From Modestobacter marinus (GTDB taxonomy: Bacteria; Actinomycetota; Actinomycetes; Mycobacteriales; Geodermatophilaceae), in contig NZ_JAAMPA010000001.1 in NCBI RefSeq assembly GCF_011758655.1, positions 930,001-994,000 on the forward strand: DNA of 64,000 bases, given 5' to 3'. How positions within the stretch are numbered: the stretch's first letter is position 1; each line of letters starts with the position of its first letter. The notes below the pieces were generated by a model. That model made no database searches, was not told the origin of the DNA, and was given only the letters and a program-made list of their open reading frames with translations. Made by a program: the position numbers and the translations under genes. Below are positions 21,022 through 30,201 of this stretch, piece by piece.

Positions 21022-22200
21022 TCACGTGACCCCGAGCTGACCGGACAGCACGAGCACGGCGGCCCCGGACAGGGCGCCGTGCTCGCCGAGCGAGGTCATC
21101 CGCAGCTGGACGTGGCTGCTGACGACCGGGATGGTGCGTTCGCGCAGGGTGTCCAGTGCCGCGTCGCGCAGCGGCCCACCCAGCAGTTCCCCCGGGCCGC
21201 AGAGCACGACCTCGGAGAGGTTGAGTGCGCTGACCACGGGGGCCAGCACGATGCCCAGCCGACGGCCGACCGAGGCCAGTGCGGCATCGGTGGCGGCAGG
21301 GTCGAGCCCGGCGATCCGCCGGCGCATCGCCGGCACGGACAGCACCGTCTCCAGGCAGCCGCGGCGCCCGCAGGCGCAGGGCTGGGGGCGGCCGAGGGGT
21401 GCCTGGTCGTGCTCGTCGCGCTCGTCGAGGGCGGTGACGTGCCCGAGCTCGCCGGCGGCGTGCTCGTTGCCCTGGACGAGCGCGCCGTCCAGCACGATGC
21501 CGGCGCCCACCCCACCGCCGACGGTGAGCACCAGCAGGCCGTTGCCGGAGGCGCCGCCCCAGGTGAACTCGCCCAGGGCCGCGGTGTCCGCGTCGTTGGC
21601 CACGTGCACCGGCAGCTCCAGCGCGGCGCTCAGCTGCTCGGCGAGCGGCAGGTCGTACCAGCCGCGGTTGGGCGCCTGCAGCACGCGACCGGAGGGGTCG
21701 ATGACGCCCGGGGAGCCCACCCCCACCCCGAGCACCGGGCGGGTGGTCGCCGCGACCAGCTCCTGGCACAGGCCCAGCAGCACCTCGACCGCCGCGGCAC
21801 CGGTGCGGCCGCCGACCGCCGCCGTCCGGCGTTCCTGGACGGCGCCGGACAGGTCGAGGACGGCGCCGTGCACCAGCTCGTCGTCGGCCAGGTCGACGGC
21901 GACGATCTGGAAGGCCTCGGCGTCCAGCCCCACCAGCGTGCCGGGCTTGCCGACCTTGCCGTCGGCCTGCTGACCCAGCTCGGTGACCAGGCCCTGGGCC
22001 AGCAGTGAGGCGACGAGGTCGGAGATCGTGACCCGGGTCAGCCCGGTCGCCCGGGCCAGCTCGGCCCGCGACCGCGGCCCGGCGTGGAAGAGCAGCTGGA
22101 GCACCATCGACCGGTTGCTCGCCCGGGCGTGCTCGGGCAGCACCTTGGCGGTGGAGCGCAGCGCTCGTCGGTGCTGCGGGGTGTCTGCGACGGCGGTCAC
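21022..22200 (-). CDS. ROK-family transcriptional repressor (NagC/XylR type)
   Basis: 392 residues from the GTG at 22200. An N-terminal winged helix (SMVLQLLFHAGPRSRAELARATGLTRVTISDLVASLLAQGLV) is followed by a ROK sugar-binding domain with GVGVGSPGVID, ANDADTAALGEF, LTVGGGVGAGIVLDG, GELGHV and zinc motif CACGRRGCLE. The frame is open upstream to 22329, but that would place the operator dyad inside the gene, so 22200 is preferred. It heads the importer operon and is likely an autoregulated repressor released by an amino sugar or its phosphate. Confidence 0.9.
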   Translation of the reverse strand: MTAVADTPQHRRALRSTAKVLPEHARASNRSMVLQLLFHAGPRSRAELARATGLTRVTISDLVASLLAQGLVTELGQQADGKVGKPGTLVGLDAEAFQIVAVDLADDELVHGAVLDLSGAVQERRTAAVGGRTGAAAVEVLLGLCQELVAATTRPVLGVGVGSPGVIDPSGRVLQAPNRGWYDLPLAEQLSAALELPVHVANDADTAALGEFTWGGASGNGLLVLTVGGGVGAGIVLDGALVQGNEHAAGELGHVTALDERDEHDQAPLGRPQPCACGRRGCLETVLSVPAMRRRIAGLDPAATDAALASVGRRLGIVLAPVVSALNLSEVVLCGPGELLGGPLRDAALDTLRERTIPVVSSHVQLRMTSLGEHGALSGAAVLVLSGQLGVT

Positions 22201-22201
22201 A

Positions 22202-22226
22202 TTTGTTAGGCAACCGTCCTTACAAA
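22202..22226. promoter_or_regulatory. ROK operator overlapping the repressor start region
   Basis: TTTGTTAGG-caaccgt-CCTTACAAA is an inverted repeat with 8 of 9 arm positions matching, directly upstream of the repressor GTG. A -35-like TTGACA lies just upstream (22236-22231 on the minus strand). TTAGG/CCTAA arms are typical of ROK-repressor sites, so autorepression is likely. No second copy was seen before the binding-protein gene. Confidence 0.7.
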
Positions 22227-22328
22227 CACCTGTCAAGGGGGTGGCGCGCGAGTGAGCAGAACGCAACCTGCCTACTTGCAGCTCACCGGCCCGGCACGCG
22301 CACACGGCTCGCGCTGCTACGGATGACA

Positions 22329-22352
22329 TGGGACTCGAAACATGAAGAGCCG
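22329..22352 (+). repeat. Degenerate copy of tRNA-Ser 3' segment (possible att remnant)
   Basis: TGGGACTCGAAACATGAAGA and the following GCCG align with 28010-28034 inside tRNA-Ser (T arm and variable arm). About 20 of 25 positions are identical with one gap, in the same orientation. The position coincides with the left edge of the lower-G+C region, and the geometry (displaced tRNA 3' end on the distal side) is what tRNA-targeted integration leaves. Chance similarity is not excluded. Confidence 0.45.
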
Positions 22353-23111
22353 CCCTCGAAGCTTCCGACCATCGCAGCGCAATCTTTGGAGCCGCCGCTC
22401 CGCCCTTCGAATGGCCAGATTCAGATTCGGTTCACCGCCCGCAACTCTGACTGTCCGTTGAGATCCCGCGGCGGGGCGAGGTAGCGCGTGACCTTAAGAG
22501 CTTCGCCGCAACCGCCCCGCCGGCCGATACGGCTACCAGCTGGCTACCGTGGACGAAGACCGCCTGGAGGCGATGCTGAACGACGACGAAGACCAGCGCC
22601 GGAGATACCAGTCGCACGCGTCGCCGGCCACTGGCTACCAAGCCAGCCGCGGGTTTGCCCCGCGCCAGATGCGGTCTCGCAATTGGTCGCGGGGCTGCAA
22701 TGCAACGGTGCGTTCCCGTCACAGGTCTCGCGCGCTGGCACAGTGAGACGGCTAGCCTCGGAGCCGCGCGACCACGCCCAAGGGGTCTAGATGTACGCGG
22801 TCGAGCCGACCGCCAAGTCCCCCTGAGAAGTTGGGCCAGCAGCCGCCTTGCTCAGCCACCGATCCGCCGACCGCTGGCAGACGAGAATCGTGTCCTTCAG
22901 GAGGTGGCCATCCCACCGTAACGGACCCGGCAAGCCTGGATTTAACCACTGCTGCACTATTTCTAGCGTGGTACCACACCTGCAGACGACCCCGGCGCGC
23001 CTTAAAGGTCGACTGGGGCAGACGTGGGAGTACTGTATGTCCGACGACGTCCGCGCCTGAAGTAACCGTTTACGTCTAGACTCAGCAGGCCCCTCCGCTG
23101 CTCTGCCCCAC
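22353..23111. other. Island-edge region without a recognisable gene
   Basis: Short open frames exist, for example 22549-22746 encoding MDEDRLEAMLNDDEDQRRR followed by low-complexity Arg/Ser. None has a convincing ribosome site, codon pattern or recognisable domain. The region probably holds gene debris and the promoter of the downstream helicase gene. Confidence 0.5.
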
Positions 23112-25019
23112 ATGCCATCCTCCGCAGAATTGTTACGACCAAGGGACCACGCCTTGCCCCTACTGCGACTCTCTGGTCGCCGCCTTAAAGCGCTGGCTGA
23201 TGGCAATTCACTGAGCGCGACACTAGCCAGGCAGATGTCCCTCACTCATCGGCCGATGATTTCTAGTCGAAGCATGAGCGCTTGGGCGAATAGCCTAAGC
23301 ACACTCGCCGTCGACCTTAGTGAAGCCAACCTAGGAGACGTTGAGGTCCTCATCTCCTACCGGCTTCCGCACTCTAGCCATCATGTCGACGTTGTCCTCG
23401 TTGGCCAACAAGCGGAGCGGCTTGGACCTTCATACGTTCTTCTGAATATTAAGCCTTGGCAAGAAGCGACTCTATTTGAAGATAATCCAAAGCTCGTCCT
23501 CCAGTCCGGCACGCGAGGCCGACCAAGTCTTCATCCAGTCGCGCAGGTTCATGCACAGTGCGAGTACCTACGTAGCAAACTGGGATATGCGGACATGTCC
23601 GCCGACCCCGTCTCTGGCGCCGCCTATCTACACAACGCTAGCGATGACTCGGTACACGCGCTCCGCACTTACCCGCAGGATCGGTCAGGTCAACTATTCA
23701 CCGCCCTCGGCCGAGCCAGGTTCTTGGACTATCTTCGCAGCCGCCTATCTCCCATCAATGCGGACATTCACGCCGATCGCCTTCTCAGGTCGTCGTTCAC
23801 TTCGTGCAAGAGACTACTCAGCGTAGCGGCCGAAGAGTTTCACGGCCGCCCACAATTCATTTTCCTGAACGAACAGCTAGTGGCATTCAACTTGGTGTTA
23901 CATGAGGCAACCAAAGCCCAATCTGTCGACCACAAGTCTGTGGTAGTCATTTCGGGCGGGCCTGGTAGCGGAAAGAGTGCGGTCGCATTGTCGCTGCTCG
24001 GCGAGTTGAACCTCCGCGGATTAATAGCAGCCCACGTGACAGGATCGCGATCCTTTACTCAAACGCTACGGCGGGTGATTAGCCCGCAAGCGCCGCGGGT
24101 CGCTGCACTGTTCAAGTATTTCAATCAGTTCATAGATGCTCCAGAAAACGGCCTCGACGTTCTGATAGCGGACGAAGCTCATCGACTGCGGAAGACGTCA
24201 GTGAATAGGTGGACCAGGCCAGAGCTGAACACCGGCAAGCGCCAGGTCGACGAAATTATCGACGCCGCTCGCCTGTCTGTCTTTTTGCTAGACCAGGACC
24301 AAGTGGTACGCCCCGGCGAGACGGGCACTCTTGAAGAAATTGAAGACCACGCGCGGGCGCGCGGCATCCCAGTAAGTCACGTTGCTCTAGACGGACAGTA
24401 CCGCAGCGGCGGGGATCCCGAGTATGTCAACTGGGTGGACCGACTTCTCGGACTAACGGCAGGAAGACCCGCACCGTGGACGGGGAATGCCGACTTCGAA
24501 CTCAAGTTGGCATCATCCCCGTCTGCACTGGAGGCGATGCTGGCCGATAGGGTCGTAATGGGGCAAAGTGCGCGCATTGCTGCTGGCTACTGCTGGCCGT
24601 GGAGTGACCCGCTTCCGGACGGGTCCCTCGTACCGGACGTCCGGATCGGCGAATGGATGCACCCTTGGGCCCTTAAGGGTGATCGGTCGGTCGGCGGGGC
24701 GCCGCCAGCCGCGCTTTGGGCGAGTGACGACCGCGGTTTCGGGCAAGTGGGCACCGTCTATTCGGCTCAGGGGTTCGACTACGAATGGAGCGGTGTGCTT
24801 GTGGGACCCGACCTAGTGTGGCGGAACGACGACTGGGTGACTGTGCGCCAAGCGAGTATGGACCCGGACTTTAAGAATCTGCGACGTGTCAGTGACGCGG
24901 ACTTCGACGTACTCGTTCGCAACGTCTATAAAGTTTTGCTGACCCGAGGTCTGCGCGGAACTATTCTCTATTCGACCGATGAGGAGACGCAGGAATTCCT
25001 CAAGACAGTCGTCCGCTAG
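23112..25019 (+). CDS. Nuclease-like / DUF2075 (Schlafen group 3-like) helicase protein, candidate defence gene
   Basis: 635 residues. Residues 60-130 form a PD-(D/E)xK-like core: the HHVDVVLVG strand with D93, then YVLLNIKPW with N112 and K114. In relatives as I recall them this strand reads VVxELKQW, so the catalytic Glu is replaced by Asn. A P-loop ATPase/helicase domain follows: Walker A GGPGSGKS (282-289), Walker B IADEAH (D354-H357), LLDQDQVV sensor, AQGFDYEWSGVLVG, and LLTRGLRGTILY as an arginine-finger motif. This is the DUF2075 module. It is convergent with the SIR2 gene, 79 bp away. Composition is unlike the host. A nucleic-acid-targeting defence role is inference. The start at 23112 is plausible; later ATGs exist near 23235. 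Confidence 0.82.
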   Translation: MPSSAELLRPRDHALPLLRLSGRRLKALADGNSLSATLARQMSLTHRPMISSRSMSAWANSLSTLAVDLSEANLGDVEVLISYRLPHSSHHVDVVLVGQQAERLGPSYVLLNIKPWQEATLFEDNPKLVLQSGTRGRPSLHPVAQVHAQCEYLRSKLGYADMSADPVSGAAYLHNASDDSVHALRTYPQDRSGQLFTALGRARFLDYLRSRLSPINADIHADRLLRSSFTSCKRLLSVAAEEFHGRPQFIFLNEQLVAFNLVLHEATKAQSVDHKSVVVISGGPGSGKSAVALSLLGELNLRGLIAAHVTGSRSFTQTLRRVISPQAPRVAALFKYFNQFIDAPENGLDVLIADEAHRLRKTSVNRWTRPELNTGKRQVDEIIDAARLSVFLLDQDQVVRPGETGTLEEIEDHARARGIPVSHVALDGQYRSGGDPEYVNWVDRLLGLTAGRPAPWTGNADFELKLASSPSALEAMLADRVVMGQSARIAAGYCWPWSDPLPDGSLVPDVRIGEWMHPWALKGDRSVGGAPPAALWASDDRGFGQVGTVYSAQGFDYEWSGVLVGPDLVWRNDDWVTVRQASMDPDFKNLRRVSDADFDVLVRNVYKVLLTRGLRGTILYSTDEETQEFLKTVVR

Positions 25020-25098
25020 CCCGGATTACGTACAATCTGGTGCGGACAACGACCTACTAATGTAGTCCCGCTAGGTAGACGTCTGTCAAAATACGGCG

Positions 25099-26673
25099 TT
25101 AAGAGTCGGCCAGGTCCTGTACCGCATCGGTGATCTCCTCGAAGGAGTCGAACCACAGCACTCTCACCCCTAGGCTCATGAGGATTTCTTCGACAAGTCC
25201 GTGATGCATGTCAAGGAACTTCCGCAAACTTGGATCGGAGATTGACTTTAGTTCTTTGACCGACCGGCGAGCTGTCGACAGGTTTTCCCGTCTCATGAAT
25301 GCATAGTGCCGTGCCGTGTCGACACTGCGTGCACCGATGTCCAACATGCGACGAAGATTCGGGTCCGTCATCGACAGTCCGACGAAAAGGCATGCATGTT
25401 CCCTGATGGCATTCAGCTGGACGATGTTGGTCCAGTGAAATGGATCTGAGTACACTTGGTGATACCCTTGTTCACTCATGACTAGAAACTGCTCATGAAC
25501 GCCCAAGTAAGTATCTGGATCACTTGGCAGGAAGCCGTGGACATGATATACGGGCAATTCCTGCGAGGTTGGCGCTGTCTTCCCTTCGTAAACCGCTACT
25601 GCTCGAACACGCCTAGTATTGAGGTTACCTTCCAATAGGTCATCAAAATTGTAGGTGATCACCGAGTGCACGCGTGAGCCTGCGCGCGTGGGCACACACA
25701 GATCGGAGATTGCTCGCAGGAGAGCCTTTGGCCTGTCGTTGGAGGCGTTAGCATATAGAATGCTGCGCAAATGCGATTTGAAGTCCTCGCCGCCGCGCTC
25801 CAAAGCTTGCTGAAGATACCGAGCCAGTTGGAGAGGCGAATCGCTATTAAGATGACCGGCGAGCAGGCCGAGGGCCGTAAGCTCCGACGACCCCGAGCGC
25901 GAGTCGAGTTGAGAGCTGAACGCGGCATCAAATAGAGAAGCGATCATCTGGTTCCAGGACGGTAGACCCAAGTCCATCGAGGCGCCGGCCCCCAGAAACA
26001 GCGACACGCCCTCGCGGTTGAAGATGTCGCGCAGTTCGCCTATAGCCTCAGATCTTACGAAATTCCGCTCCTGACGACGGACTTTTGTGGCTTCTTGCGG
26101 TGCCGGAGGTTTCACGGTCGGTCGGGCCGCGAGTTCATCCGCCAGTATTTCTGAATGCCGGGCGGCCAGATCCTCGAGGTCTTCAACGCCCCAGACAATT
26201 ACGGGAGGGGCGTCTGGCCGCATCGCAGAAGACAGCTCGTGTAGCTCAGCATCGAGACCTAGTCGCCGAAGTTGACGACTGGAGAGGTTATGGATAATAA
26301 GGACCGTCCCCGCTGACGCCGCGACGCCTTCAATCGCGGCGCGTCTGACAACTTCGCGAAGCCTAAAACTTGCCATTCTTGGATTATTCGAGAAGAACTT
26401 CACGTCGACCATCAACGGCGGCACGAGGCTTGCCACCGCGAACGGAATTACCGCATCAAATGCGTACGTTCTACGCTTAGGCGAAGCTCGGGCGAGTTCA
26501 AGTGACTCAGGCGTGACCTGCTTCTCACCCGAGGAGGCGGGGGGTGCGTCCGCTGCCAGGAGTCGCAAAACTAGAGCCTCGAATCGTCGGGCCCCCGCGA
26601 GAAGGTTAGCTTCCTCCTCCAGGCGGTCGAGAAGAAGTCGAAGGGGCGACAAGGGGCCGTCCGAGGTTGTCAT
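25099..26673 (-). CDS. PD-(D/E)xK nuclease - SIR2 NADase fusion, candidate antiphage effector
   Basis: 524 residues from ATG 26673 (AAAGG nine bases upstream; the frame is open to 26835 but without support). The N-terminal half resembles an Mrr-like restriction endonuclease: RRFEALVLRLL, YAFDAVIPF (D73), PLMVDVKFF (D90, K92), then VLIIHNL and VIVWGVEDLEDL. The C-terminal half is a SIR2-like NAD-binding domain: FLGAGAS (228-232), ITYNFDD (N342), YHVHG (H379) and VGLSMTDPNLRRML. The Asn and His needed for NAD+ cleavage in defence SIR2 proteins are present. Such domains deplete NAD+ during phage infection in known systems. The fusion and its convergent helicase partner suggest an abortive-infection module; function here is inferred. 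Confidence 0.82.
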   Translation of the reverse strand: MTTSDGPLSPLRLLLDRLEEEANLLAGARRFEALVLRLLAADAPPASSGEKQVTPESLELARASPKRRTYAFDAVIPFAVASLVPPLMVDVKFFSNNPRMASFRLREVVRRAAIEGVAASAGTVLIIHNLSSRQLRRLGLDAELHELSSAMRPDAPPVIVWGVEDLEDLAARHSEILADELAARPTVKPPAPQEATKVRRQERNFVRSEAIGELRDIFNREGVSLFLGAGASMDLGLPSWNQMIASLFDAAFSSQLDSRSGSSELTALGLLAGHLNSDSPLQLARYLQQALERGGEDFKSHLRSILYANASNDRPKALLRAISDLCVPTRAGSRVHSVITYNFDDLLEGNLNTRRVRAVAVYEGKTAPTSQELPVYHVHGFLPSDPDTYLGVHEQFLVMSEQGYHQVYSDPFHWTNIVQLNAIREHACLFVGLSMTDPNLRRMLDIGARSVDTARHYAFMRRENLSTARRSVKELKSISDPSLRKFLDMHHGLVEEILMSLGVRVLWFDSFEEITDAVQDLADS

Positions 26674-27139
26674 CTGGCAGGGCCTTTCGCACGAGACGGT
26701 TTCACGAACAGCGTGCCACATCTCACCGACGGCACTGCCGTGGACACGCAAGTTGGACGCATGCAGGCGGGTATGTCCGAAGTTGGTCGCCGCCCATGAG
26801 GCATACAGGGTCGCTGGCAATCGCACAGTCTTCACTGTGTAGCCAGCGATTGTGGGTCCGGCAGGGACGCAAAGGAACTTCCGGCGAGGAGTCGGCCGAG
26901 ATGACGAGAGCTCGACTTAGTTTCCGCTAGTCACTGGTGTGCCGATTCGATGCTCTTGATTGTGCAACCCCCCGCCGCGCGATCAGCCCCACGATAGATT
27001 CAGTCGCCATTAATACTCAGCTTGTCATGATGGCGGAATCGGACTTCTTGCCGGTAGGCCGCCTGGCCGTTGGCCAAGTCGCGAATTCAGCCAAGGCTGT
27101 ATCGACATGCGTTTACAGATTGCGCTTGGCGACATTCGA
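26674..27139. other. Island stretch without a supported gene
   Basis: About 460 bp between the SIR2 gene start and the IS481 relic. No frame shows recognisable protein similarity. The portion next to the SIR2 gene probably carries its promoter; the rest looks like decayed sequence on the missing 5' side of the insertion element. Confidence 0.5.
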
Positions 27140-27944
27140 TTTGCAGCCGCCGAACAGCCCAACGAGACTTCGCAGTCGAACTTCACCCACTATAGGCTGG
27201 CCACCGGCGCCGACAGCGAAATCAGCACCTGGCTCGACGCCCACACCGGCTGGCACTCCACGTCTCCGCCCACACCCGGATCACCGGACCGATCGTGCTG
27301 GCCACCTTCCGGCAAGCCGCTGCACGGATATCCAGCATCCATACTCACCGACAACGGCACGGTCTACACCACCCGCTTCGCCGGCGGTCGCGGCGGACGC
27401 AACCACCTCGAACACGAACTACGCCGCCTGCACATCACCCAGAAGAACTCCCGCCCCAACCACCCCACCACCTGCGGCAAGGTCGAACGCTTCCAACAGA
27501 CGATGAAGAAGTGGTTGGCCGCCCAGCCCGATCAGCCGACCACGCTCGACCAGCTGCAGACCCTCATCGGCGTCTTCCTCACCGCCTACAACCACGACCG
27601 CCCGCATCGGTCACTGCCGCACCGAGCCACCCCGGCCACCGCCTACGCCGCACGGCCCAAAGCCGGCCCCGGCGCCGACCGCAGCCGCGACACCCAACGA
27701 CCGGGTCCGCACCGACCGCATCGACTCCACCGGCTGCCTCAGCCTCCGCCTGGCCGGCCGCCTCCACCACATCGGCATCGGCCGAACCCACGCCGGAACC
27801 CACGTCCTGCTCCTGGTCCAGGACCTGCACATCCGCGTCATCGACGCCGCCACCGGCGAACTCCTCCGCGAACTCACCCTCGACCCCACCCGCGACTACC
27901 AGCCCACCGGCCGACCACCCGGACCCACCCCGAAAAAGCACTAG
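27140..27944 (+). pseudogene. IS481-family transposase relic (5'-truncated, frameshifted, catalytic Asp lost)
   Basis: Similarity to an rve/DDE integrase is spread over frames. AAEQPNETSQSNFTHYRL (27140 on) is in one frame. RLALHVSAHTRITGPIVLAT is in another from about 27250. HGYPASILTDNGTVYTTRF and KVERFQQTMKKW return to the first frame near 27330. The C-terminal DRIDSTGCLSLRLAGRLHH, then GELLRELTLDPTRDYQP, is in another frame from about 27690 to the TAG at 27942. In active relatives the first stretch reads QSDFTHY; here the first catalytic Asp is Asn (codon 27179-27181). The N-terminal helix-turn-helix part is absent. At least three frameshifts make it non-functional. Confidence 0.85.
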
Positions 27945-27974
27945 CCCGGACCCACGAATCGTGGGTCCGGGCTA
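27942..27974 (-). terminator. Rho-independent terminator after tRNA-Ser
   Basis: A perfect 15-bp stem (27942-27956 with 27960-27974, core AGCCCGGACCCACG, loop AAT). On the minus strand it is followed by gtgcTTTTTcgg, a proper U-tract, so it would terminate tRNA-Ser transcription. It also contains the TAG stop of the transposase relic, so it may instead derive from the insertion element. Confidence 0.75.
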
Positions 27975-27977
27975 TGC

Positions 27978-27998
27978 CGATGTCCTGCGACATCACAG
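27978..27998. repeat. Probable IS481 right-end sequence next to tRNA
   Basis: GATGTCctgcGACATC is a 6-bp inverted repeat followed by ACA, starting four bases after the terminator hairpin and ending just before the tRNA 3' end. It resembles the terminal sequences of actinobacterial IS481-type elements as I recall them. No left-end partner was found, in line with a truncated element. Confidence 0.45.
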
Positions 27999-28000
27999 CG

Positions 28001-28088
28001 CGGAGGGCGTGGGATTCGAACCCACGAAGAGCTGTGAACTCTTAGCGGTTTTCAAGACCGCCGCCATCGGCCACTAGGCGAGCCCTCC
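28001..28088 (-). tRNA. tRNA-Ser (anticodon TGA)
   Basis: 88 nt. The 5' GGAGGGC (28088-28082) pairs with the 3' GCCCTCC (28008-28002). The anticodon stem GCGGT/ACCGC encloses loop CTTGAAA with anticodon TGA (28054-28052). A long variable arm and T arm GTGGG-TTCGAAT-CCCAC follow. The discriminator is G and no CCA is encoded. It is the likely anchor of the adjacent island. Confidence 0.95.
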
Positions 28089-28389
28089 TGGCGGTCCGAG
28101 GCTAACGCCCCGCCGCGCTGGGCACCGTCCCCGCTCCGGCGAGCGGGACACCGCGACGACGCGAGCACGGAGGGTCACCCGGTCGTGACCGGCGTCCGGC
28201 TGGCAGACTCGTGGGGAGCACAGCACCACGGGCGGGGCCGCAGGCCGCCGCCCACCGGGGCGCGCGGCGACGACCGGGCCCGGCCGGGCATGCCCGGCAG
28301 CACCCCGGTGTTGCAGCTCCCAGATGGTCCGCGAGGGCTCGCGTCGACCTCCCCCACTCAGCACGCCGACCGAAGGACACTCCCTGCCT
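28089..28389. other. Gap with divergent promoters for tRNA-Ser and helicase gene
   Basis: About 300 bp, G+C-rich like the host. No gene is supported. It contains host-type GC-rich inverted repeats (for example CGGGCCCGGCCGGGCATGCC). A distant in-frame ATG at 28324 exists, but the GTG at 28390 better suits the helicase start. Confidence 0.5.
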
Positions 28390-30201
28390 GTGACCGGCAC
28401 CCAGCACTCCCCCACCCGGCGCCGTGAGCGCAGCGCGGCCCGCGAGACCGCCGCCCGTGACGCCGACCGGGTGGCCGCCCGCGACGAGAAGCGCGCCCAG
28501 CAGATCTGGGTGGACGGCGCGGCACCCGAGCTGCCCAGCCGGGCGACCCGCCCGGAGAAGGTGGTCTTCCACCTCGGCCCGACGAACTCCGGCAAGACCT
28601 ACGAGTCGCTGCAGGCGCTGGCCGCCCTCGGCTCCGGCGTCTACGCCGCCCCGCTGCGCCAGCTGGCCCACGAGGCCTACGCCAAGCTCTCCGCCCAGCT
28701 GCCCCCGGGCACCGTTGGCCTGTCCACCGGCGAGGAGGAGATCGACCCGAACGCGGCGATCGTCTGCTGCACCGTGGAGAAGGCCCCCGACCGCGGCGAG
28801 ATGCTCGTCCTCGACGAGTCGCACTGGGTCACCGACCCCGACCGCGGCCACCACTGGGCCCGGCTGCTGCTGACCGGCGAGTACCGCGAGATGCACCTCA
28901 TCTCCGCCGCCGAGGCCTACCTGGTGCTCAAGCCGCTGGTCACCGACGCCCAGCAGGTGCAGGTCGTCAACCACAAGCGGCTCTCCCGGCTCGACGTCCT
29001 CCGGGCCCCGGTGCGCACCGACGCCGTCCGCCCGCAGACGCTGGTCGTGGCCTTCTCCCGCAAGGCCGTCTACGCCGTCGCCGCCGAGCTGGACCAGCAC
29101 CGGCCCGGCAAGGTCGGCGTCCTCTACGGCGCGCTGCCCCCGGCCACCCGCCGCCAGGTCATCGACCGGTTCACCCGCGGCGAGCTCGACGTGCTGGTGA
29201 CCACCGACGTCATCGGCCACGGCATCAACGTGCCGGCCACCACGGTGCTGTTCGCCGAGACCACCAAGTTCGACGGCCAGGAGCTGCGCCCGCTGCGCAC
29301 CTGGGAGGTCGCCCAGATCGCCGGGCGCGCCGGCCGGTACGGGCTCACCGGACACGGCCAGACGGGCATCCTGATCGGCGTCTCCGGGCTCAAGCCGGTC
29401 GGCGCGCTGGTCGGCGCCGGTGCCGCGGTCGCCCGCGGCGACGAGATGAGCGACCTGCCCAAGCGCCGGCCCCGGCTCCGCCCGGAGCTGGAGGACCTCG
29501 GCGCGTTCGAGGCGGTCGACCTGCCCGAGGCGCTCACCCGCTGGATGGCCTGGGCGCGGGTGGCCACCCAGGACGAGGGCATGACCGCCGACGACGTCAC
29601 CGGCCTGGTGCTGCGCGTGCACGCCCTGCTGCCGATGCTGCGCGGGCCGCTGGGCGAGGCCGGCGACCTGCAGACGGTGTGGCGGTTGATCAACCTGGCC
29701 ATCGACTACAACCCGCCGCGGCGCACCCGCTGGCTGGTGCTGGCCCGGGCCGCCCTGCAGCACGCGGTCGGCCTGCCGGTGCCGGTCGCGACCGTGCTGC
29801 CGGAGTACCCGGTCAAGGGGTCGGTCGAGGAGTACGAGCAGACCGCCGCCGCCGCGCGGGACGCCCAGACCCTGCTTCGCCAGTTCCCCGGCGTGGCCGG
29901 GCTGGACAGCGACGACGCCGCCGAGCTCGAGGAGGCGTGCGCCCAGACGATCACCGAGCTGCTGCCCGACGCCATCTCCATCGGCCGGTCCGGCACCTGC
30001 ACCGAGTGCGGCACCTCGATCGCCCCGTGGTTCACCACCTGCCGGCCGTGCAGCGGCCCGCGGTCCGGCCGCGGTGGCAGTGAGCGCTCCCGGCCGGCCG
30101 GCGGTCGCGGCCGGTCCGGCGGTCGCCCGACGCCGACCGCGAACACCGGTGCCGGCGCCGGACGGCGCAACCGGTCCTCCCGGGGGTCGCGCCGCAGCTG
30201 A
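28390..30201 (+). CDS. SUV3-like DExH RNA/DNA helicase
   Basis: About 603 residues. A charged N-terminus (RRRERSAARETAARDADRVAARDEKRAQQIW) precedes the helicase core: HLGPTNSGKTYESLQAL (Walker A as in SUV3), YAAPLRQLAHEAY, STGEEE, CCTVEKAP, LVLDESHWVTD (motif II DESH), VVAFSRKAVYAVA, VLYGALPP, VTTDVIGHGINVPATTVLF and QIAGRAGRYG. An SUV3-type C-terminal helical domain follows, then a CxxC-CxxC zinc ribbon (CTECGTSIAPWFTTCRPC) and a Gly/Arg-rich tail. SUV3 acts with RNA-degrading nucleases in mitochondria; the bacterial role is unproven. The GTG at 28390 is preferred; the frame is open to 28324. Confidence 0.85.
   Translation: MTGTQHSPTRRRERSAARETAARDADRVAARDEKRAQQIWVDGAAPELPSRATRPEKVVFHLGPTNSGKTYESLQALAALGSGVYAAPLRQLAHEAYAKLSAQLPPGTVGLSTGEEEIDPNAAIVCCTVEKAPDRGEMLVLDESHWVTDPDRGHHWARLLLTGEYREMHLISAAEAYLVLKPLVTDAQQVQVVNHKRLSRLDVLRAPVRTDAVRPQTLVVAFSRKAVYAVAAELDQHRPGKVGVLYGALPPATRRQVIDRFTRGELDVLVTTDVIGHGINVPATTVLFAETTKFDGQELRPLRTWEVAQIAGRAGRYGLTGHGQTGILIGVSGLKPVGALVGAGAAVARGDEMSDLPKRRPRLRPELEDLGAFEAVDLPEALTRWMAWARVATQDEGMTADDVTGLVLRVHALLPMLRGPLGEAGDLQTVWRLINLAIDYNPPRRTRWLVLARAALQHAVGLPVPVATVLPEYPVKGSVEEYEQTAAAARDAQTLLRQFPGVAGLDSDDAAELEEACAQTITELLPDAISIGRSGTCTECGTSIAPWFTTCRPCSGPRSGRGGSERSRPAGGRGRSGGRPTPTANTGAGAGRRNRSSRGSRRS

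Follow-up and report, generated by a model that had tools for sequence, protein, structure and literature searches.

SIR2 domains are listed as components of Thoeris, SPARSA, DSR1/2, SIR2-HerA, PD-T7-2 and Avs5 in the accessible passages of PMC10952713. In those of PMC10586767, SIR2 stands alongside Mrr as an effector domain of Lamassu LmuA, and uncharacterised SIR2 systems are mentioned for P4 satellites in the available part of PMC9122126. MazG domains are described as predicted, unvalidated defence domains in the passages found of PMC13092281. The present analysis deals with a stretch of 64,000 nucleotides from Modestobacter marinus (hereafter the window), in which a small island at a tRNA-Ser gene carries a fusion of an Mrr-like PD-(D/E)xK domain with a SIR2 domain, and a helicase of the SLFN-g3 family (PF09848, which we take to be the former DUF2075). 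The 524-amino-acid fusion is read as a stand-alone, single-gene defence NAD+ hydrolase (NADase), of which the helicase is not the partner, the two genes having in common only the tRNA-Ser island; the probability of this whole reading is put at about 0.55.

The fusion matches SIR2_2 (PF13289) over residues 337-472 (E 4.4e-18), and residues 202-524 of its structural model align to residues 2-279 of ThsA. For several related structures, the titles indicate helical assemblies. The domain, the GAG(A/V)S motif, the asparagine and histidine residues and the modelled fold argue for its membership of the SIR2 defence NADase class, and NADase activity is predicted. For the N-terminus, the best alignments of the model are to PD-(D/E)xK enzymes, with modest Z scores. 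With Foldseek alone, nothing significant was recovered for this part, the PD-(D/E)xK core has no significant sequence match, and the winged-helix domain Mrr_N is not matched in the window protein. PADLOC models match the fusion from residue 209 on and none does so before that residue at E values up to 1; the LmuA model, for example, covers residues 209-467 (E 6.2e-10), i.e., the SIR2 part. An initial annotation of the locus, made from the sequence alone, had recognized the SIR2-like domain here and a DUF2075 domain in the neighbouring gene, both borne out by Pfam (for the helicase, E 2.1e-77 over residues 275-623), and GAGAS, N342, H379, D73, D90 and K92 all lie at the positions it gave. The Mrr-like nuclease core that it proposed holds: the residues are present and the model aligns best to PD-(D/E)xK enzymes.

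Comparison of the fusion with its relatives indicates how the two halves may work. N342 is kept in all 22 rows of the alignment and H379 in 21 (tyrosine in L079); L087, which is short, and L090, which looks the same as L089 in the part compared, were left out, and the rows of L080, L083 and L084 begin downstream of their first start codon. The nuclease core (E32, D73, D90, K92) is kept in 12 of the 18 rows bearing the region, the window included, and broken in the other six: L068, the closest relative, has DVR (thus DxR) in the nuclease motif, and L080, L073, L082, L083 and L084 have ECM, EVW, EIF, VIK and YIK, respectively. The earlier nuclease part is missing from the ORF (open reading frame) used for L073, and L082 also lacks E32. 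This count leaves out L072 and L081, in which the region is missing from the row used, and L085 and L088, which carry a TIR domain instead. An effector that is kept beside a nuclease that is repeatedly lost or swapped would fit an N-terminal sensor and a killing SIR2 domain. The N-terminal domain would bind foreign, perhaps modified, DNA, mainly as a sensor; this binding would release or oligomerise the C-terminal SIR2 domain, which would hydrolyse NAD+ and thereby abort the infection. If true, a restriction module has been turned from a cutter into a sensor and wired to cell suicide within one protein of some 500 residues, linking modification-dependent restriction to NAD+ depletion. It may further be proposed that such proteins form a widespread family of immune switches, each made of a single protein whose Mrr-type domain, often with its cutting activity lost, serves as DNA sensor and triggers a SIR2 NADase, the exchange of the sensor for TIR making them a modular chassis that bridges type IV restriction and abortive infection. 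This generalisation is tentative, and we would rather bet against it than for it.

Several relatives show other architectures. In two from metagenome-assembled genomes (MAGs) of Lachnospiraceae, L083 (9290-11071) and L084 (114-1892), a single protein carries Mrr_N (E 8.7e-16 and 2.2e-16), then a nuclease-like domain without the acid of the (D/E)xK motif, then SIR2; the Mrr_N part of L083 also matches a PADLOC type IV restriction model (E 9.2e-05). In L085 (4675-6006) and L088 (3231-4571), from one actinobacterial MAG and one viral contig, TIR replaces the nuclease in front of the same SIR2 class; two rows match TIR_2, and TIR is recognized in L085 with E 2.2e-19 and in L088 by its sequence. 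A nuclease-SIR2 relative is also found on two viral contigs (L089, 5785-7134; L090, 9485-10834), with an intact ExK as checked in L089.

Among 249 genomes of the same order, 13 have a SIR2 match and 62 a helicase match; a near full-length fusion occurs only in the window genome and in G198 (47% identity, E 3.3e-137), the other 11 SIR2 matches being weaker (best E 2.3e-16) and restricted to the SIR2 part. Class-wide, the SIR2 family is rare, being present at E 1e-30 in one genome of 394, the window's own. Scans recovered 20 loci with fusion relatives from genome contigs and three more from viral contigs. No neighbour family occurs in at least three of 21 SIR2 loci within 9 kb (E 1e-10, ORFs of at least 90 amino acids), and this lack of a recurrent neighbour fits a single-gene unit. 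A gene near-identical (99.9%) to the copy on a Klebsiella plasmid is present in three of 5426 E. coli genomes (E. coli relative WP_032434307). In the two E. coli loci examined, its neighbours are a CbtA/YeeU-GTPase cluster and a large gene, the latter annotated as NACHT in one genome and represented by two hypothetical ORFs in the second; HsdR is encoded at a distance of about 9 kb; the Klebsiella copy is likewise next to a CbtA/YeeU cluster and a large hypothetical gene. At 19 SIR2 loci, the 91 ORFs closest to the gene have matches in 33 PADLOC families (E 1e-15), the 25 listed including a CBASS cyclase and 2TM effector, DrmA, PDC-S06 and PDC-S70, against seven families for 91 control ORFs; these are counts of families and not of ORFs matched, several models can match one ORF and some matches seem to be look-alikes, and the control stretches were hand-picked from contigs that were already familiar. 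Of the 98 neighbour ORFs found, seven were excluded: two from L068, four from L080, and one from L072, which is the N-terminal piece of the SIR2 gene itself. The last five of the 96 control ORFs were excluded as well. Nearness to other defence genes, which had been set as a check, holds for some loci, and enrichment, which this control cannot prove, is suggested at most and not claimed.

The closest known systems differ from the fusion. ThsA of Thoeris is a SIR2-SLOG NADase, whereas the fusion has no SLOG part and ends where the SIR2 domain ends, at residue 524; a restriction-type domain stands in front of SIR2 instead, and no ThsB-like TIR protein was matched among six ORFs scanned, namely the Suv3-like gene and five that lie on the island or at its edge. 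In Kongming, the SIR2 NADase KomC is a chain of 264 residues solved with KomB, according to structure titles, whereas the protein described here has its putative sensor fused to SIR2. In DSR1/DSR2, SIR2 comes first and a long C-terminal sensor follows, with a DSR2 chain length of about 1000 residues; the fusion has 524 residues, with SIR2 last. SIR2-HerA (Nezha) also has a helicase gene close to a SIR2 NADase (accessible passages of PMC11559045), but its partner is an ATPase of the HerA/FtsK type, and the neighbour here is a SLFN-g3 helicase that has no HerA match and was not found with the fusion elsewhere. The fusion shares a PD-(D/E)xK domain with the Mrr type IV enzymes, and two of its relatives share Mrr_N, but the window protein has no Mrr_N match and adds a SIR2 NADase, and one third of the family rows have a broken core (6/18). 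As for Lamassu, the LmuA model matches the SIR2 part, and SIR2 and Mrr are both effector domains of LmuA (passages of PMC10586767), but the gene next to the fusion is a SLFN-g3 helicase and no SMC match (LmuB) was found among the same six ORFs. An Mrr-SIR2 fusion is not named in the open-licence passages found on SIR2, supplements excluded (PMC9503650, PMC11559045, PMC10952713, PMC9519451, PMC9122126, PMC3506569, PMC10586767), nor in those on Schlafen and MazG (PMC12839542, PMC13092281); DUF2075 led, in the open-licence literature, only to papers unrelated by title.

The adjacency of the two genes had suggested that the pair, or the fusion alone, acts in defence, and the co-occurrence of their homologues elsewhere had been set beforehand as the test of this idea. 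In the loci searched, the homologues were never neighbours, in either direction. With phmmer (E 1e-3) and ORFs of at least 80 amino acids from the loci retrieved, the helicase was detected in none of the 20 loci of fusion relatives, several of which have flanks below 10 kb at contig ends, nor in the three viral loci, and the fusion was detected in none of 19 helicase loci of 17-20 kb. A conserved helicase/SIR2 pair is therefore rejected (0/20 and 0/19 loci paired), and it is the fusion-alone half of the proposal that survives. G198, the genome of the closest fusion relative, has no helicase match. A whole-genome search with PF09848 in 19 of the 20 SIR2-bearing genomes (that of L080 left out) gave some match in 18, over the cut-off in 11 and over the whole profile in only two (G265 and G251), in whose SIR2 loci phmmer finds no helicase. 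This corrects a tempting but unsupported two-gene system.

The helicase appears to have a history of its own. It is probably an orphaned, degenerate and nuclease-dead member of the known SLFN-g3 family, matched by the PADLOC candidate PDC-S41 (E 2.2e-12). Its nuclease-like N-terminus is assigned from alignment and motif alone: E54 and E112 are kept in all 28 relatives having this part and are S and N in the window copy, while D93, K114, Walker A and DEAH are retained. When compared with six outgroup sequences over residues 45-160, the window copy has a mean identity of 0.39 and six relatives of the same family have 0.575-0.602; over residues 271-630, the values are 0.61 and 0.662-0.685, respectively. 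Furthermore, among positions invariant in all other rows, 9 of 29 are broken in the nuclease part and 8 of 104, mostly mildly, in the helicase part. In these alignments, the loss is specific to the nuclease domain. Because the two acids are replaced and divergence is domain-specific, this copy has very likely lost its nuclease activity; its ATPase may nevertheless be functional. Thus, the initial annotation of this gene as a nuclease/helicase is right for the family, which has a nuclease-like N-terminus, and not for this copy, whose core is broken.

Elsewhere, the helicase tends to adjoin another gene, an association of note for this family. When the neighbours at 19 helicase loci and in the window were clustered, one family of small proteins was found in 11 loci, and the three members scanned are MazG or MazG-like (PF03819, PF12643; E 1.7e-06 to 6.2e-04). 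With a profile built from seven members, which match by construction, 15 of the 29 helicase relatives (L016-L044) proved to have a MazG-like gene nearby, 14 of them within flanks of 1.5 kb and L022 via the larger stretch L055. Its presence is thus not universal, and 10 of the 15 genes face away from the helicase, as judged by strand. No such gene was found in the window (best tblastn E 0.11), and the whole window genome has no match to PF12643 or to one helicase-type MazG-like protein, although such genes are detected in relatives by the profile; it has one ordinary MazG gene (PF03819), about 580 kb from the helicase. Compared with the SLFN-g3/DUF2075 helicases (PDC-S41), the window copy lacks two nuclease acids and the MazG-like neighbour. 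A scan of viral contigs with the helicase alignment gave 600 pattern matches and no relative, and a profile search of the PDB only weak matches (best E 0.055), mostly to P-loop proteins. Other genes seen at the SLFN-g3 loci L049-L067 encode HNH_2, Vsr, C5-methyltransferase and PLDc-helicase-DUF3427 proteins, each family in 3 to 7 of the 19. Pairs of diverged DUF2075 helicases, adjacent to each other on the same strand or back to back, occur in 5 of 249 genomes (G055 C3:305584-309477, G090 C13:68846-72744, G214 C1:8311298-8315272, G228 C1:57592-61478, G240 C2:2777947-2781813), which suggests a two-helicase arrangement.

Two sets of observations bear on rival explanations. One is a Lysinibacillus plasmid (L046, 4300-9002), where a pyrophosphohydrolase gene, a DUF2075 piece and fragments of a distant SIR2 gene follow one another within 5 kb. 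The DUF2075 piece, about 1.5 kb from the SIR2 fragments, is 25.7% identical over residues 535-635. The reading frames look broken, and a single further plasmid record matches, sharing 1% of the stretch; the plasmid is the only case for pairing found, and a noisy one. It would fit a two-gene module, a counterpart here of SIR2-HerA, with invading DNA processed or sensed by the helicase and the cell killed by the fusion, as would the adjacency of the genes on one small island and the existence of SIR2-plus-helicase pairs such as Nezha (passages available of PMC11559045). Such a module is nevertheless improbable, given that none of the 20 and 19 loci is paired and that the genome of the closest relative has no helicase match, while the two genes are convergent and the nuclease of the helicase is broken. 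The other set is the intact E32, D73, D90 and K92 of the window protein, because of which it could still cleave DNA. The fusion would then be a dual effector, its nuclease cutting DNA in a type IV-like restriction and its SIR2 domain serving as a second way to kill, as a back-up; in keeping with this, 12 of 18 rows have the full core, the model has the PD-(D/E)xK fold and two relatives have Mrr_N. This alternative is unlikely rather than negligible, since the motif reads DxR in the closest relative and the core is broken in another five rows, while the NADase residues stay.

Both genes could also be decaying passenger DNA, remnants of a defence island that have been eroding since insertion. 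The attachment scar left of the island is indeed degenerate, no integrase was recognized by eye in six-frame translations of the gap 22350-23112, where the family search covered two ORFs, and the transposase is a remnant; the broken nuclease of the helicase and the lack of a match to its kind of MazG-like gene in the genome point the same way. However, both reading frames run uninterrupted for 635 and 524 codons, and the residues of the SIR2 motifs as well as 96 of 104 invariant positions of the helicase domain are retained, so that general decay has little to recommend it. A single-gene NADase triggered through its N-terminal domain is thus preferred, beside an orphaned helicase.

As for the locus itself (Table 1), the convergent arrangement, the spacing of 79 bp and the foreign composition described initially all agree with the coordinates and with the G+C content per kb (54-60% over 23.0-27.0 kb vs 66-81% elsewhere in the window). 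The two genes are not alone on their island as had been claimed, since it also holds an IS481 transposase remnant and abuts a tRNA-Ser gene. The remnant is a partial match to its family model (NF033577 transpos_IS481, 88.7 bits for a cut-off of 224).

Table 1. Coordinates of the features of the island and its flanks in the window
Feature	Positions	Strand	Basis or remark
ROK-like regulator (name presumed), left of island	21022..22329	-	tRNA-Ser 98 bp / 47 bp away in two relatives
Degenerate copy of tRNA-Ser 3' end, likely left attachment-site scar of island	22320..22350	.	25/32 alignment columns identical
SLFN-g3 (DUF2075) helicase, 635 aa (amino acids); degenerate N-terminal PD-(D/E)xK-like domain (S54, D93, N112, K114), intact Walker A (GGPGSGKS) and DEAH	23112..25019	+	ORF, Pfam, alignment
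Fusion of Mrr-like PD-(D/E)xK and SIR2 domains, 524 aa; candidate single-gene defence NADase	25099..26673	-	ATG at 26673, stop at 25099
Fusion N-terminal domain, residues 1-198, PD-(D/E)xK fold in model; E32, D73, D90, K92	26080..26673	-	
Fusion SIR2 domain, predicted NADase, residues 199-524; GAGAS 228-232, N342, H379	25102..26079	-	
IS481-family transposase remnant, integrase core	27107..28045	+	PF13683 E 4.9e-14
tRNA-Ser(UGA), 3' end = probable island insertion point	28000..28088	-	3' end faces island
Suv3-like RNA helicase, right of island	28324..30201	+	adjoins tRNA-Ser in 12/12 relatives fetched

The tRNA-Ser context was read in 12 fetched relatives out of the 22 found. The left-flank gene, presumably ROK-like from its sequence, lies inside the fetched stretch in only two of them, L105 and L107, where the gap between it and the tRNA is 98 bp (G048) and 47 bp (G099), respectively, vs about 5.7 kb here in the same genus. 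The scar adjoins this gene, where these two relatives have their tRNA-Ser; the first codons of the ROK-like ORF overlap it, and the match to relatives begins at residue 15-19. As a copy of the tRNA 3' end, the scar scores 34; of the 633 tiles scored across the window, without the tRNA tiles, the best apart from two overlapping ones that hold the scar has 26. The short gap in the two relatives and the degenerate copy indicate that insertion most likely took place at the 3' end of tRNA-Ser and that the left scar of the island has decayed. In G280, also of this genus, a second island (L111 9920-19784) occupies the tRNA-Ser site; it is delimited by a partial copy of the tRNA at a distance of 9.7 kb and its G+C content falls to 0.58, and this tRNA-Ser looks like an integration hot spot.

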